Source: Antennarius striatus
Lineage: Eukaryota; Chordata; Actinopteri; Lophiiformes; Antennariidae
Direction: 5' to 3'
Length of the DNA: 64,000 bases
Assembly (NCBI RefSeq): GCF_040054535.1
Contig: NC_090789.1
Coordinates: 632,697-696,696, forward strand
Shown here: in pieces, positions 2,001 to 32,300 of the stretch
Layout: every line of letters starts with the position of its first letter
How positions within the stretch are numbered: the first letter of the stretch is position 1
Program-made: the position numbers and the translations under genes
Notes under the pieces: model-generated
What the model was told of the DNA's origin: nothing
What the model saw: the letters and a program-made list of their open reading frames with translations, nothing else
Databases searched by the model: none

Positions 2001-2554
2001 CCTGTTTTTTGTGGGGTTTGTTCTTTATTTTCATTGGATGACGTCACCTTGAAAACGAGCATCACTGAAGTTCACTTAGAATGACTTCCTGTTTAAAGAC
2101 GAAGGACTCTGATTGGTCGGGTGTGTTTGTTTGTTGTTGTGTTGAGCTGGCGTCTCCATGGAGACCAGTGATGGTGAATAGCGCCCCCCCCCCACCCACA
2201 GGAGCAGGACTAGAACCATCTGGACTCCTGTAGTTCTTTGGGTCCCAACACCAAGGGACTGGGGGCGTTTGAATAATTAATGAACCACTGTGGGGGGTGG
2301 GGGGTTACAAACAAACAAACAAAGCAGACCTGGACAGCTAAGCCCCCAGCCTTGAACTGGGCTGAACCCGCCGTCACACCTCCAGCTGGTATTAGCCGCG
2401 GCTGATTGGCTTACTGAGATTACCCAGAGGCCTTTGCTCTTTTGACAGCATCTGCTTCTCTGGGCTGAAGCGTGGGCCAGGACCAGGATCAGGATCCAGA
2501 GGGATACGCAGCTCTCAATCAAGAACCTCCAGCACCCCCCCAGCAGCAGCAGCC

Positions 2555-5024
<2,470 letters not shown>

Positions 5025-8836: not shown

Positions 8837-12383
<3,547 letters not shown>

Positions 12384-13625
12384 GGCGGCGTCTGGACGGG
12401 AACCCGCCGGACGAATCAGATCAGGACACCGTCCGGCCGCCGGCCAATCAGGAGGATCCGAGGAGCCGGGGGAGGAGTCCAGAGGGGCGTCCGGTGAGGT
12501 GGGCGGGGCTGAGACGTATTCATGAAGGAGGAGACGGAGGGATTAGGGGGGCTGGCGAAGTAGAACAGAGGTCAGAGTTCGAGTGCAGGGGGCGGGGTTT
12601 GAGGGAGGGGCGGAGTCAAGGAGCGGTGGTTTAATCGCTCTCAGCGAGGAGGAGACAGATGTGCAGGAGGAACTCAGCCCCGCCTTCTTCCTGATGTCAC
12701 GGGCGCGGCCAGAGGCGTGGCAAGTCTCCTGTCTGAGGTGAGGCTCCGCCCCTCTTCCATCGCCACTCGCCGCGTTCCGGTCCGGTTGGCCGCGCCCAAA
12801 TACGCCGATCACGACGACCACCTGGAGAGGCAACACACACACTAGTCACTAACACACACACTACTAGTGACACACTGATCGCTTCGCTGTACGAACCTGG
12901 ACTCTGTCGGATGTATCAGTGAAGCCCCGCCTCTCCGCTGATGCGTTTGCTCACGTTTGGGAATCCTGTCGTTGTTGTGAACACCTGAAGGAGGCGGAGT
13001 CTGGGTTAATCAAACAGATGACATCATCACACACGTAGAGCAGATGAAGGATCACATGACTACTCACGTCCTAAAGGCGGCGTTTACCCATTATCCCTCG
13101 CTTCCTCCTCGTCCTCGGATCAGATGGAATCTTCCCTGGGGGGCGTCTGATCGGATAACTCCGCCGCCGTTCAGGAGCAGCTGGATGAACTGAACGCCGT
13201 CGACGAGCGCTCCCCTCACCGGGTTGGGGATGCGCCGCCTCCTTTGGCCCCGCCCCCGACGGGGACTCCTTCACCTCTCCTCCTCATCGTCGCCCCCGCC
13301 CAGATTCCCTCCTAATCCCCCCCCGTCCATCTGCTGCGTTCCGGCACTATACGGTTCCTGATCACCATCATCTCTCCTCCGCTGTGGATGTGACCCATGA
13401 CCTCTGACCTCACACTGATTACTTTGACAGGATGTATAGATCAGATTAGAGGCGTGAGGCTTGTTTACGGTCCGGCAACTAAACCCCGCCCTCCTCAACA
13501 GCTGGACGCCATCCTGATCCCACGGCTGGTGATCCGTCACGCCAAGCATACGTGTTTCCTGTTTACATCTTGTTTATATATTAATTACATCCTGTTGACA
13601 CCTGAATCTTGATTTGAATGCTTGA
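12384..13625. other. Upstream flank of the gsg1l2-like gene; no gene seen
   Basis: GC-rich sequence just upstream of the gsg1l2-like start (12384-12800) may hold its promoter. The several open frames here lack family similarity or splice logic. CA-type words occur at 12830-12870. Nothing else is recognised. Confidence 0.5.
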
Positions 13626-15116: not shown

Positions 15117-18100
15117 TCAGAACAGGACCGGATTGTTCCCGTTCCCCGTCTGATCGGACCCCAGGAAGAGGTGCGGCTGGAAGGGAGCTCCGCCCCCAGC
15201 CTGTGAAGGGCGGGGTCCTGTTCCTGGTTGACAACCCCCACCAAAGAACCCAGATGGACCCGTTGCTGTTCCCACTGGGAGGGGGTCTACAGAAGGATTT
15301 CCCATCAGGGATGCTGACTTCACCGTCCCGGTCCCTCCACAGGGGGGGTACGAGCCTAACCCCCCGTGTGGACCCCCTCCCAGGGGAACAATTCCAGCTC
15401 CGGACCACATGAGGGGCAACTGAGTCATGTTTAAACCAGGATGGGACGGCAGCCGAAACAGGGGGGGTCTGCCGGAAAGGTGAGCTGCACCAAAGGGAGG
15501 AGCAAGGGCGGAGCCCTGATGGTCACAAGGCGGAGCTGACATGACAGGAGGGGGCGGGGCTGTGGAGGTGCCTGGGAAATCAGAAGGAAGAGGAGGAGGA
15601 TGGGGAGGAGGTGGGGGGGTGCAGTTCAAAGTGTTCCAGCAGAGCAGAGGGAGGGGGGGTCATCAACACAACATCGACACGCAACAGCAACACGACACAC
15701 GGAACCACAGAACCCGACTGATTAATGGTGTCTAAAGACGCCCCCCCCGCCCCACCCCCACCCCATCGGAACGGTCTTTTAGGGTGGTGCGTCCGTTTGG
15801 ATCAAGCGCTCAGAAGAACTCCACACGAAGCCCCCCAGGGTGAAGCTCCGCCTCCGTCCTTACCAGCGCCTCGAGTCGGGGTGTAGACCGGGTCCACAGG
15901 GGGGCGCCGTTTGGGTTCAGAAGAAAACAGATCGTCCATGTCCACAAGCCCCGCCCCCGCCGGGCCCAGAAAGGAAGCAGTCTTTGAGCGGGTTTCCTGG
16001 TCCTGAACGGGTCGCCGTCCTGAAATCAAATAAAGGAGCGGTTCTGCTCTAAAAGGGGTTCGGTTCTGGGTCCGGGTTCGGGTCCGGGTTCAGGAGGAGA
16101 GAGAGCAGAGCGGAAGAGAGGTGTCAGTAATCTCGGTTGCTAGGCAACAGATGGTTGATGGGAAGATGGTGGCGAGATGGAGGACAGACAGTGATGTCGT
16201 TAGAACGGAGAGGACAGAACACAAGACGTGAACGGTGGGCGGGGCCAAACTGGGAAAGAGGGCATACCTGTTTCACTGGGGGTGTGGCTTGGGGCGCCCC
16301 AGGGATCTTCTTTTTTAGACGCCCCGTCTCCAAACGGGTCACCAGACGGCGGGTGCGAGGGCGAAGCGGGTGACCCCCACGCATCACTTGTGCTAACAGG
16401 AGCCGCGGCTAAGAATGGGAGCACAAGACGACGGCCAATCAGGATGCAGATAGAACCAGCAGACCAATCAGAACTCACACAAACTATCCACAGTCACTGT
16501 TGGGTAAGGGCCGTACCTGTTGCCCCCCAGGGGTCGTTGTCCGGTTTGGAGGAATCTCCAAAAGGGTCAGAATTGTCAAGGGTTGAGGAGGCACTTGCTC
16601 CGCCCCCCCAAGGATCCGCCCCGGCAGCAGGCGGAGAGCTAGCAGGTGGCACCCAGGCATCTGCACCGCCGTGGGGTGGGGTCAATGGGGGGGCACTGAA
16701 GGGATCTGAGGTGACATGTTTAGGTGAACAAGGTGGTCCCTCAAAAGGGTCGTCATTTGGGGGTGTTTGGGTAAGAAACGGGTCTTCTGTTGGTGGTGGA
16801 GAACTGACAGGGTTGTCTGTGGGGGCATTAAGGGGGTCATCTTTGGGGGCATTAAAGGGGTCTTCTTTGGGGGCAGTAAATGGGTCGTCTTTGGGGGAAT
16901 TGAAAGGGTCATCTTTCGGGGCATTAAAGGGGTCGTCTTTTGGGGCATTAAAGGGGTCGTCTTTTGGGGCATTAAAGGGGTCATCTTTCGGGGCATTAAA
17001 GGGGTCGTCTTTCGGGGCATTAAAGGGGTCGTCTGTGGGGGCATTAAATGGGTCGTCTTTAGGGGCATTAAATGGGTCGTCTTTGGGGGCATTAAATGGG
17101 TCGTCTTTGGGGGCATTAAATGGGTCGTCTTTGGGGGCATTAAATGGGTCGTCTTTCGAGGCATTAAAGGGGTAATCTTTCGGGGCATTAAAGGGGTCGT
17201 CTTTCGGGGCATTAAATGGGTCGTCTTTTGGGGCATTAAATGGGTCGTCTTTGGGGGAATTAAATGGGTCGTCTTTATGGGCATTAAATGGGTCGTCTTT
17301 GGGGGCATTAAATGGGTCATCTTTCGGGGCATTAAATGGGTCGTCTTTCGGGGCATTAAATGGGTCGTCTTTCGGGGCATTGAATGGGTCGTCTTTGGGG
17401 GCATTAAATGGGTCGTCTTTCGGGGCATTAAATGGGTCGTCTTTCGGGGCATTGAAGGGGTCGTCTTTGGGGGCATTAAATGGGTCGTCTTTCGGGGCAT
17501 TAAATGGGTCTTTTTTCGGGGCATTGAAGGGGTCATCTTTGGGGGTATTAAAGCGGTCGGGTTTATCTTCTGAGGCTTTGAAAGGGTCTGGGTTCTTAAC
17601 AAACGGGTCTTCTTCAGACTTAGTTGGAGCCCCCCAAGCATCGCTGCTGGCTGCTGCATCTTTGGGGCCTCCCACTGCTTCTGGCTCCGCCTCCTGGCTC
17701 TCTGTGTTTGCTCCGCTCCCCCAAATCGCCTCCTTCACGGTGGTTTCTTTACCAGCATCCTCCCATTTCAGCTCGTCCTCGCTCATCCCGGCCTGGAACA
17801 TTAAAACGTACCATTAGTAGGGTGGGGGAGGGGCACCAAACCCAAAACATCGGATCCAGCTCATTTTTGTTGACAATAACGACTTATGAACATTTCAACT
17901 TACGAACATTTCAACTTTCAAACAATTCAACTTAGAAACATTTCAACTTACGAACAATTCAACTTGCAAACATTTCAACTTTCAAACAATTCAACTTACA
18001 AACATTTCAACTTACGAACAATTCAACTTACGAACATTTCAACTTTCAAACAATTCAACTTAGAAACATTTCAACTTACGAACAATTCAACTTGCAAACA

Positions 18101-19313
18101 TTTCAACTTTCAAACAATTCAACTTACAAACATTTTAACTTACGAACAATTCAACTTACGAACAATTCAACTTACAAACATTTCAACTTTCAAACAATTC
18201 AAATTACATACAATTCAACTTACGAACAATTCATCTTATGAACAACCTCTCTAAACTGGCTGTTTTTCGTGGGTCGAGGACTTCCTGTCCTGTCCTGGCC
18301 GCGTACTCACCCTCCTCACTGCTTCCTTCTTCTCAGCTTCCTGTTTGAGTCGCTCCTCCTTGCGAGCGGCGAAGGAAGCGGTCAGGTCGGCCACCGACGG
18401 GATGTTGTCCAGTGACGGGAGGCCCGAGGCGCCGGGAACGTAGCACGGTTTGTAGCTGGGATCCTTGATGGTGTCGGCGGACGAGGCTGATGGGGGGGGA
18501 CGACAAGATGAGACACGCACCAAACTGAAACGGAGGGACTTCCTGTCAGAAGCGCTCACCAGTAGAACCCTTTGAGGTCTTCTCTCTGGTTTTGACAGCA
18601 AAGTCTCGCTCCTCCTTCAGCTTCTCGTCGTCCTCCATGAGCACCAGGACCACTTTGGCTTTTTCCCTGACATTTGCACCCTGGGAGAGAGACGCTGGTC
18701 AACAAATCAAACACTCCCTAAACACACCTGACAGCAGACGTGAACTCGGTTTGGGTCCATGAGTCCAAACAGCACCTGGTCTTTGCCGTCTTTCTCCACG
18801 AAGCGATACTCCGTCAGCGCTTTGACGATGTAGATGTTGTCCTTCATCTTCAGCAGCACGCGATCGTCTCCCGTCTTCAGCAGGTACTCCAGCAGCGTCA
18901 GCGACTGAGGCCAGCGGAGGACCACAGGATACAACATCTTAATGACGCCTACAGGCGTAAACGGGGCGTATCCATGGCGACGATTTGACCTGGGTTACCT
19001 TGTGGATGTGCCTCCAGTTTCTGTCGTCTTTCAGGCGCTTCCAGAGCATTGTCATGATCTCGTTGCAGGCGACCACGTTGTAGGTGAGGTCAGAGAGGTC
19101 GGCCATCTGGGAGCTGGAGGGACCCCAGGGGTCGTTAGAGGTCGCCTCCCGCACCTGAAAAAAAAAACACGACCAGGTACGAGTCGCACTTCAGGACCCC
19201 ACCACCAGGTGGCGGAGGGATACATCCGTGAGACCGGACCTCACCTTGACCTCGGCCTCGGAGTAGTTCTGGACCAGGTTCTTCAGCTGTCGCCTCAGCA
19301 TGGAGGACGTCAT
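15117..19313 (-). CDS. Epsin-family ENTH adaptor with an expanded DPF repeat
   Basis: Nine coding exons in transcript order: 19313-19245, 19154-18999, 18904-18776, 18680-18560, 18486-18311, 17792-16517, 16408-16268, 16019-15864 and 15571-15117; 892 residues. Residues 1-155 are an ENTH domain (LRRQLKNLVQNYSEAEVKVR, then EATSNDPWGP). Phosphoinositide-contacting residues R8, K11, R25, N30, R63 and the later His are kept, with one residue deleted in the loop and Lys replaced by Arg. A charged helix follows (AARKEERLKQEAEKKEAVRR), with no recognisable UIM. Exon 6 (about 425 residues) is a low-complexity AP-2 binding region with about 35 DPF/DPW motifs. The epsin-conserved block FLGPAGAGLVDMDDLF is in exon 8. 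The tail ends GNNPVLF where epsins end NPFLL. Family role: PIP2-dependent membrane bending and AP-2/clathrin recruitment. The ENTH is about equally far from EPN1-3, so no paralogue is named. Confidence 0.9.
16826..17560 (-). repeat. In-frame 24-bp coding minisatellite, (NAPKDDPF)n
   Basis: About 30 tandem 24-bp units in exon 6 of the epsin each encode an octapeptide NAPKDDPF. Nearly all changes are conservative or outside DPF (NSPKDDPF, NAHKDDPF, NAPTDDPF, NAPKKDPF). Only a few alter it (DYPF, DDPL, DNPV). No unit carries a stop or frameshift. Synonymous differences between units (for example GGGGGC versus CGGGGC on the + strand) show the array is not a single recent burst. Confidence 0.96.
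17880..18235. repeat. 15-bp minisatellite in epsin intron 5
   Basis: About 24 copies of a 14-16 bp unit alternating AACATTTCAACTTAC and AACAATTCAACTTTC. It ends 75 bases before the epsin exon 5 donor. Confidence 0.92.
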
Positions 19314-23694: not shown

Positions 23695-24905
23695 TACAGG
23701 TAAAAGCCAGTAAATTACAATATTTTGAAAAACTTGATTTCAGTAATTGCAGTCAAAAGGTCACAAAAACTGTGGTAAGAAAAAGTGTACAAGCGATGGG
23801 GATCACCGCGCCCTGGTCAGGATTGTGAAAAAAACCCCATTCAAAAAGGTGGGGGAGATTCACAAGGAGTGGACAGCTGCTGGAGTCAGTGCTTCAAGAT
23901 CCACCCCCAAGAGACGCTTGAAAGACGGGTTTCAACTGCCACATACCTCGTGTCAAGCCACTGCTGACCAGGAAACAGCGCGAAAAGCGTCTCACCTGGG
24001 CTAAGGAAAAAAAGAGCTGGACTGCTGCTGAGTGGTCCAAAGTCATGTTGTCTGACGAAAGCAAATTTTGCATTTCCTTTGGAAATCGAGGTCCCAGAGT
24101 CTGGAGGAGGACAGGGGAGGCACAGGATCCACGTTGCCTGAAGTCTAGTGTAAAGGTCCCACCATCAGTGATGGTTTGGGGTGCCATGTCATCTGCTGGT
24201 GTCGGTCCACTCTGTTTCCTGAGATCCAGGGTCAACGCAGCCGTCTACCAGCAAGTTTTAGAGCACTTCATGCTTCCTGCTGCTGACCTGCTCTATGGAG
24301 ATGGAGCTTTCAAGTTCCAACAGGACTTGGCGCCTGCACACAGCGCAAACTCTACCCGTGCCTGGTTTACGGACCATGGTATTTCTGTTCTAAATTGGCC
24401 AGCCAACTCCCCTGACCTTAGCCCCATAGCAAATCTGTGGGGTATTGTGAAAAGGAAGATGCAGAATGCCAGACCCAAAAACGCAGAAGAGTTGAAGGCC
24501 ACTATCAGAGCAACCTGGGCTCTCATAACACCTGAGCAGTGCCAGAAACTCATCGACTCCATGTCACGCCGCATTAATGCAGTAATTGAGGCAAAAGGAG
24601 CTCCAACCAAGTATTGAGTATTGTACATGCTCATATTTTCATTGTCATACTTTTCAGTTGGCCGACATTTCTAGAAATCCCTTTTTTGTATTAGCCTTAA
24701 GTAATATTCTAATTTTGTGACACATGGAATTTTGGATTTTCATTTGTTGCCACTTCAAATCATCACAATTAAATGAAAAACACATTTGAATGCATCAGTC
24801 TGTGTGCAATGAATACATATAATGTACAGGTTACACCTTTTGACTGCAATTACTGAAATAAATCAAGTTTTTCAAAATATTCTAATTTACTGGCTTTTAG
24901 CTGTA
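23695..24905 (+). mobile_element. Tc1/mariner element, complete ends, inactive
   Basis: A 1.21-kb element bounded by TA, with terminal inverted repeats of about 70 bases. The left end TACAGGTAAAAGCCAGTAAA matches the reverse complement of the right end (TACAGCTAAAAGCCAGTAAA), and both continue through an AATTGCAGTCAAAAGGT word. The inner part encodes a Tc1 transposase. The near identity of the repeats indicates a fairly young insertion between NECAP and rpl15. Confidence 0.92.
23747..24617 (+). pseudogene. Tc1 transposase, frameshifted and catalytically altered
   Basis: The N-terminal helix-turn-helix part (23747-24004; LVRIVKKTPFKKVGEIHKEW, then ASRSTPKRRLKDG) and the DDE part (24045-24617) lie in different frames. 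The first catalytic Asp is in MLSDESKF, the second in FQQDLAPAH. The third position is normally Glu in SPIENLW but here reads SPIANLWG, so the DD34E triad is broken. The C-terminus ends in the usual KGAPTKY. The copy cannot transpose itself, though its ends might be mobilised by a related transposase. Confidence 0.9.
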
Positions 24906-29375: not shown

Positions 29376-32300
29376 ATGGAGGCGACCAAAGCCGGTGAGT
29401 CCGCCCGGCCAGCTCCGGTGGTTAAACGCTTGCTAGCAGAGCAAAGGGGCAATAAACGAGTCGTTTATTGCCCCTTTGCCTGCGGTCAGGTGAAGTGGGT
29501 CAGGAGGAGCAGTGGGGCTGTTGTTGTTGCCCCTCCAGCCTGCGGTGCTCCGCTCACATGTCCCCGTCAGCCTAGCCATGTGCGCCTGTGTTTACGCTGC
29601 CCGTGCGTCGCCTCTGATTGGCCGAGCGGCGCAGTGACGTCACGATTGCATAATTTGTCCCGTCGAGCTGGTGTGGGGTCTCGCGGCGGGTCCATGTGAG
29701 CGTTCGGTCAGCGGCTCCGGTGACCCACATTCACCGGGGGGGGGGGCAGTGATGACGCGTTCAGGTCCCGTGGGATTAAATCATTTTAACAGATATTATC
29801 AGAATAAAACGTCACGTGTCGCGTTTTTTTATTTTAAATATCTTTTCCGGTCTGTTCCTCGTTTCACTGCAGAGGTTTTAAGTGTAAACATAAGTTAAAT
29901 GTTTCCAGATAAAAAAAGTTTATTTCTGTTATTCCCTAAAAGAATCGTTTCCATTTTTTTGAGTTTGACTTGAATGCAGCACATTTTCCTGATAACAGAT
30001 ATTGATCAGCTGATCAGCTGATGTTTGATGTGATGTGACCCACAGGATCACGCCTGTAAACCAGTCGTCCCAGTCTGTATCCGGTACCGGTAACTGGTAA
30101 CCGGTGACGGGTCGACTCTGAACCAGAACTCAGTGACCCACTTACAGACTGACACCATTATGGGTTCAGCCACAGGGAGGGGCCAAACTACCTCCTGGTG
30201 GTGTTATGTAACTTCCGTTACTTAATCACAGAGGATAGAAATCAGGTCAGATGAAGGAGGGGAGGGCAGTTCTCCTCCTGGGGGATGGATTGGGGGGGGG
30301 GTAACGATCAGGCCTCTTGAAGCCGGATCTTAAGAACAACTAAAGAAACCATCCAGAACCAGAAGATCACGCAGAGAACGACTGGACTGTTCATCAGTAA
30401 CGACTCGTCACCCATAGGGGGCAGCGCCGCCGTGGGGTGAACGCTGGAGGACTTCCTGTGAATAGTTTAAACACTGCAGGATTCAGACAGACGAAAACCC
30501 TCAGGCTGGTTTTATTATGAGGGTCATAAAATAAGAATAAAAAGTTAACGTCACTAAAGTCACACTTTGGGATAAAGTCCAGGTTCTGAGGACAAAATGA
30601 TAATTTTAAGAGAATTATCGGATGTTGTCGTGACTCTGTGTTGCTCAGGAATACCTTAGCTTCATCAAAGCTAAGCGTAGTGTTGTCTTTTTAGCGTCGT
30701 TTGTTAGCTTGTTTTCTGACCTGCTGGCTGTCGTTCCTCCTTCTGTCCACCAGGGGGCGTCATCGCCTACATCAGCTCGTCCGGCGCCGGCTCCAGCCCC
30801 GAGTCGTGCCACAGCGACTCGTCCAACGGCAGCTACCAGTCGTCCTCGCCCCCCCGAGGCTCCTCCCCCAGCGGTCAGCCGCCGGCTGGCCCCGCCCACC
30901 CCACTGGCCGTCGCGACCTTCCAGGAAGTCAGAAAGGCGGGCGTTCCTCCTCCTCCTCCTCATCGTCGGCTAAATGCGGCATCACCAGTAAGACAGTCGT
31001 CCTGAGCGACAGTAGACGCGGATGTTGTCGCCATGGCGACCGTAACCATGTTTGTGTCCCGTCAGAGATCAGCGGGCTGGTGCTGCTGTGTAAGGTCTGC
31101 GGCGACGTTGCCTCGGGGTTCCACTACGGCGTCCACGCCTGCGAGGGCTGCAAGGTAACACACACACACACACGGAAGCCCCGCCCCTTTAACAGGCATA
31201 GCCCCGCCCCTCACACCTGTGCCCCCCCCCACAGGGCTTCTTCCGCCGCAGCATCCAGCAGAACATCCAGTACAAGAAGTGCCTGAAGGAGGGGGGCTGC
31301 CCCGTCATGAGGAGCAACAGGAACCGCTGCCAGCAGTGTCGCTTTAAGAAGTGTCTGCAGGTCGGGATGTCACGTGACTGTGAGTACACACCTGTCCCCC
31401 CGCCTGACCCCGCCCCCTCACCTGTAAACAAACACAGGGGTAGAAGAATGATGGGAAAGATGATTTAAAGTAAACGAGTGGCGCCGGCGGCATCCCGCTG
31501 GCGTCATGGTGGAGTGGGCGGGGCTAACACATGTCGCCCCCCCCCCCAGCGGTTCGTTTTGGGCGGATCCCGAAGCGGGAAAAGCAGCGGATGCTGCTGG
31601 AGATGCAGAGCGCCATGAACAACATGATGAGCCAGACGCTCGCCGACGCCCCCTCGCAGGACGCCAGCTCCGCCCCCTCCAGCTCGCCGTCCAGCCGCTC
31701 CGACTCCAGCTCCGAGGCGGAGCCGTCCGTTGCCATGGACACCAGCCCCAGCTCCGCCTCCGACAGCGGCGAGGAGGAGGTGATTGGCTCGGTGACGCGG
31801 GCCCACCAGGAGACCTTCATGTACAACCAGGAGGCCCCGCCCCCTTCTGACGGCCAGGCGGGGCAGCGGGGGGAGGACGCCTGGAACCGCCACAACAACC
31901 TGCTCAGCATGGGGGGGCCCCCGCAGGGCCCCCAGCACCAGGAGGCCCCCAGCCAGTGTCCCTTCAGACTGTCCCGGGGTCAATCGACCAATCACTGCCC
32001 CGCCTACGCACACAGAGCTGCCAGGGCTCCGCCCACCGACTGCCCCGCCCACCGCACTCAGGGCGGGCCCCTGTGGAGGGGAGGGGACCGCATGTACCTG
32101 GTAAGAACCTCACACGCAAGGGCCCCCCAGGATCCTGGCGATGACATCCTCGTCACGGTGATGCCTCTGTCCCGCCCCCCCAGGTGTGTCCCATGAACAC
32201 GTCGGCTCAGGTGGACCCCCAGAAGTCCGGCCCCCAGGTGTGGGAGGAGTTCTCCCACAGCTTCACCCCCGCCGTCAGGGAGGTGGTGGAGTTCGCCAAG

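Follow-up and report, generated by a model that had tools for sequence, protein, structure and literature searches.

A divergent epsin-family gene of Antennarius striatus with a minisatellite-encoded DPF array: a candidate membrane-AP-2-clathrin tether

The window, a 64-kb stretch (C14:632697-696696), was analysed together with the genome it comes from (548 Mb in 42 contigs). Nine exons on its minus strand were joined by hand into a predicted gene with a single open frame of 892 residues and GT-AG boundaries at all eight introns. Exon 1 (19245..19313) supplies the ATG and the start of an ENTH domain (helix-0 region), and resembles epsin 1h0a from residue 1. The domain continues through exons 2 (18999..19154) and 3 (18776..18904) and ends in exon 4 (18560..18680). 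Exons 1-4, once joined, match Pfam ENTH (PF01417) at 3.9e-48, and the closest solved structure is the rat epsin ENTH 1h0a (E 5.9e-64). Exon 5 (18311..18486) encodes a linker at the position of the paralogues' UIMs, with no UIM recognised in it. Exon 6 (16517..17792, 1276 bp; acceptor ...ttccag, donor gtacgg) is rich in DPF and contains the array; it coincides exactly with the DPF-rich exon of an ENTH-domain gene proposed in a preliminary description of this DNA. One DPF and one DPW follow in exon 7 (16268..16408). Exon 8 (15864..16019) carries an epsin-like block, SFLGPAGAGLVDMDDLF, with the clathrin-box-like sequence LVDMD, and exon 9 (15117..15571) a C-terminal tail without NPF that ends in NNPVLF-stop.

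A 16-bp minisatellite (17882-18237, about 22 copies) with a higher-order 64-bp period sits in the intron immediately upstream of exon 6. Elsewhere in the window, Pfam matches mark an EF-hand protein (2396-3037), which we take to be recoverin-like, a GSG1-like protein (12141-12542), ribosomal protein L15 (25387-25815) and a nuclear-receptor zinc finger (30720-31283), all usable as synteny anchors for finding orthologues. A 231-aa open frame on the plus strand (23922-24617) with DDE_3 and HTH_Tnp_Tc3_2 matches is a piece of a Tc1-type transposase.

The array (16806..17549, minus strand) comprises 31 in-register 24-bp units with the consensus NAPKDDPF, agreeing with the "about 30" described earlier; DPF is intact in 28. 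TRF reports a period of 24, 31.2 copies, 90% matches and 0% indels (16810-17559, score 1108). The three remaining units end in YPF, DPL and NPV, and two of these losses fall in the array's last two units. In the predicted protein DPF occurs 35 times and DPW 4 times, one DPW belonging to the ENTH sequence NDPWGP. Outside the ENTH this leaves 38 motifs (35 DPF, 3 DPW; about 35 had been estimated), with 28 in the array and 10 elsewhere, the latter near the ordinary epsin count. Successive motifs are separated by 5 residues in 26 of 37 gaps and by 4 residues, the shortest spacing, once. The longest exact repeat inside the array is 71 bp. Autocorrelation of unit variants peaked at a lag of 7 (p = 0.012 among 12 lags), which is not significant as higher-order structure once all 12 lags are allowed for. 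Both the TRF score and the coding-frame synonymous bias described below place the array beyond chance.

A 168-nt array DNA query matched only the array locus genome-wide, in a search that skips simple repeats. The corresponding protein query gave at least 144 matches among the 150 of 793 candidates that were scored, five of them inside the array. No second DPF array was seen in six further matched stretches (L034-L039, two overlapping), which held only unrelated low-complexity repeats. One of these, L037 (C1:1182500-1186500), consists of short repeats and has three different frames that stay open for 801-923 codons, an example of long open frames that arise from repeat DNA and do not indicate a gene. 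No report of a comparable array in an ENTH protein was found in the literature, within a scope outside subscription journals and protein databases.

Pfam matches identify six ENTH genes in the genome, of which C16 carries two and C9, C14 (the window gene), C13 and C10 one apiece. By resemblance, the C9 and both C16 genes may be named epsin 1/3/2-like, and the C13 and C10 genes CLINT1-like. Identity of the window ENTH to rat epsin 1 and the three epsin-like paralogues was 58.6-61.8%, compared with 79.7-93.5% among those four. At 30 ENTH columns that are invariant in the four, only the window protein differs. The PI(4,5)P2-contact positions are identical to rat epsin 1 in nine of ten cases, the tenth being K69 to R; the residue list is said to be that of Ford 2002. 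Three ENTH-internal intron positions are common to the window gene and the C9 epsin-1-like gene, and in both C16 genes the ENTH occupies a single uninterrupted frame. Given the pairwise identities and the intron positions shared with C9, the window gene appears to be a fast-evolving, divergent epsin-family paralogue. Because the SFLGP-clathrin-box match to C9 is weak (E = 0.026), homology of the tails would lean on position and order together with that short block. ENTH scans of viral contigs (4 pattern stretches) and genome contigs (30), collections that contain no fish genomes, returned no relatives of the window gene.

Two usual epsin features were tested for and not found. Paralogue tails were read from 10-kb stretches of the C9 and two C16 genes, and UIMs are evident in all three. 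A local HMM found nine UIMs there (E <= 4.7e-7), although eight of these nine were used to build it and so are not an independent control; over the whole window locus, introns included, its best match had E = 13. Pfam UIM matched three of four paralogue segments below its cut-off (E 0.0014-0.0093) and did not match the window segment. A loose regular expression gave a single UIM-like hit in exon 6, the degenerate KETTVKEAIWGSG, whose glycines would speak against a UIM helix. NPF is absent from all 892 residues. It is present in the tail frames of the C9 and C16:14.5M paralogues, and none was seen in the C16:9.2M stretch examined. Compared by eye, the C-terminus reads NNPVLF in the window protein, TNPFLL in C9 and NPFL in C16:14.5M. 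The clathrin-box-like LVDMD lies at residue 714 (exon 8), by a consensus we take to be that of the clathrin box; a second match, at residue 130, is inside the ENTH. The gene was therefore called "an epsin" too readily: to judge from these motifs it is probably not a full epsin, although an ENTH, a clathrin-box-like motif and traces of an epsin tail remain.

The absence of stops and frameshifts had been taken as a sign of selection on the array. The array is indeed open, but this is weak evidence, since the 24-bp consensus is open in four of its six frames; the substitution pattern is the better evidence of coding. Each departure from consensus, defined by position and base, was scored once, so that a variant copied from unit to unit adds nothing to the tally. 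Across 28 core units (32 positions minus four edge units), 7 of 14 possible synonymous types occurred in the coding frame and 8 of 58 nonsynonymous (Fisher p = 0.0065), while the five non-coding frames gave p from 0.25 to 0.94. This comparison of unit differences, proposed in the preliminary description, thus shows nonsynonymous types to be depleted. Counting every cell, the core units hold 32 synonymous and 10 nonsynonymous differences (pN/pS 0.075); taking all 31 units in register, the figures are 42 and 15 (ratio 0.086). With 31 units in the TRF register the coding-frame p was weaker (0.023), and one antisense frame reached 0.055. Transition weights of 1, 2, 4 and 8 gave 0.0066, 0.016, 0.032 and 0.048; transitions make up 5 of 15 observed change types, consistent with a weight of 1. 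Fifteen arrays entered the control test: the exon array, ten skipped for a period not divisible by three, and four non-coding controls. None of 24 control frame tests gave p < 0.05, though only one array, of 21 bp (9476-10248, 32 units, 11 change types), varied enough to be informative. Under-representation of nonsynonymous changes in the coding frame implies at least weak constraint on the encoded peptide.

Whether that constraint acts on the motif itself bears on the strongest alternative, in which the gene is real and the array has grown neutrally, by slippage drift that a disordered tail tolerates; the ~10 scattered motifs would suffice and the extra 28 matter little. That most differences spare DPF stands as a count, with DPF kept in 27 of 28 core units, but it does not extend to selection on the motif: nonsynonymous types number 1 of 22 in DPF and 7 of 36 in the spacer (p = 0.14, not significant). 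Neutral growth fits this lack of a significant difference between DPF and spacer, the loss of DPF in edge units, and a window dense in minisatellites (127 rows of TRF output over the 64 kb, the one in the adjacent intron included). The supply of slippage is ordinary here, because the window is minisatellite-rich and fish genomes vary widely in tandem-repeat content (1.7-21%; PMC2688266). What is unusual is in-frame retention with a synonymous bias, and it is the depletion of nonsynonymous changes, with the near-complete retention of DPF in the core, that counts against neutral growth and makes it a possible but doubtful account.

The likely partner of the array can be judged against published motif rules. 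AP-2 uses single DPFs of Eps15 with a KD of about 200 uM; their spacing is unimportant and binding grows with their number (PMC4921775). Clustered appendages hold multivalent ligands much more strongly than the single sites would if added together (PMC5694535). The muHD of FCHo1, by comparison, binds three DPFs set close together, at about 3 uM (PMC4921775). That of SGIP1 has a high-affinity site for linkers of 2-3 residues and a low-affinity site for two DPFs with a 5-residue linker, and muHD binding also depends on the linker residues (PMC4731787). DPF peptides are also ligands of the POB1 EH domain (PMC2238750), and epsin tails are described as binding clathrin, AP-2, EH proteins and actin (PMC4161027).

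These rules also frame a second alternative, that the array is mainly a ligand of FCHo1/2 or SGIP1 muHDs, or of DPF-tolerant EH domains (POB1/REPS), in the manner of an Eps15-like pioneer scaffold. Its 5-residue spacing equals the linker of the SGIP1 low-affinity site (PMC4731787), an agreement of 26 of 37 gaps in count only, and binding of DPF peptides by POB1 (PMC2238750) points the same way. Against this, high-affinity muHD sites call for linkers of 2-3 residues (PMC4731787, PMC4921775), the FCHo1 complex structure having spacers of 3 and 2, and no gap of that length occurs among the 37 between successive motifs. By these rules 5-residue spacing would be better matched to avid binding of AP-2 than to a high-affinity FCHo/SGIP1 interaction. 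The array may still bind muHDs weakly and some EH domains, but a main role there is improbable, and AP-2, the target first suggested, is the best reading of the published rules (PMC4921775, PMC4731787). Least probable is that the array is non-functional as read, through misassembly, exon skipping or decay of the gene: the fast-evolving ENTH would fit a dying gene, but exons are open throughout with canonical splice sites, the coding frame shows a synonymous bias, and with a longest exact repeat of 71 bp long reads should place the units uniquely.

We favour, with a probability of roughly 0.58, a protein-coding, divergent epsin paralogue that acts as a membrane-AP-2-clathrin tether through its DPF array. 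If expressed, the protein would be held at the plasma membrane by its ENTH through PI(4,5)P2, as the conserved contact residues suggest. Its disordered tail would present some ten scattered DPF/DPW motifs of the ordinary kind and, 5 residues apart, 28 more in the slippage-grown array. Since each array DPF could weakly take one AP-2 alpha-appendage, the array would gather many AP-2 complexes by avidity on PIP2 membrane, and the clathrin-box-like motif would connect them to clathrin. Lacking UIMs and NPFs, the protein would be disconnected from ubiquitinated cargo and from EH networks of the Eps15/intersectin type. It may thus be a high-avidity clathrin-coat tether instead of a cargo adaptor, and the array could alter coat nucleation or condensation.

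A broader version is more tentative: the gene could belong to a vertebrate branch of the epsins in its own right, one that has lost cargo (UIM) and scaffold (NPF) binding and become a dedicated AP-2 concentrator, with valency set by minisatellite copy number. If so, valency may change rapidly from one species or individual to the next, giving clathrin-coat initiation an avidity dial that is genetically tunable. The gene would also be a case in which the valency of a trafficking adaptor could depend on DNA repeats of a hypervariable type. Whether motif number alone accounts for the action of AP-2 appendage ligands is usually addressed by engineering the tails of Eps15 or epsin; a near-perfect array of fixed spacing, in a protein that otherwise has no cargo or EH motifs, would be a natural and clean reagent with which to ask it.

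Among known systems, the window protein shares with epsins 1-3 (EPN1/2/3) the ENTH, a DPW/DPF tail, an SFLGP..LV[DN][LM]D block and, for the C9 gene, three ENTH intron positions. It differs in lacking a recognised UIM and any NPF, and in the dominance of DPF over DPW. The motif excess over ordinary epsins noted in the preliminary description holds within this genome, where the C9 epsin-1-like paralogue has 7 DPW in its tail frames and the window protein 38 AP-2-type motifs. CLINT1/epsinR, which associates with AP-1/GGA, also has an ENTH (PDB 1xgw, E 4.5e-40), but the window ENTH is clearly nearer epsin 1 (217 versus 140 bits). An epsin-family member without UIMs is described in Dictyostelium in the cited text (PMC4161027). 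Pfam recognised no EH domain or coiled coil in the two non-array parts of the window protein. A 22-residue Eps15 query taken from PMC4921775 had no match in the same genome, a failure that is uninformative on whether Eps15 is present. Eps15/Eps15R resemble the window protein in having a DPF-array tail, theirs binding the AP-2 alpha appendage by avidity; human Eps15 is given 15 DPF in the source cited (PMC2238750). Unlike them, the window protein is without a high-affinity muHD-type cluster, and it joins an ENTH membrane-binding domain to DPF motifs at a regular 5-residue spacing.
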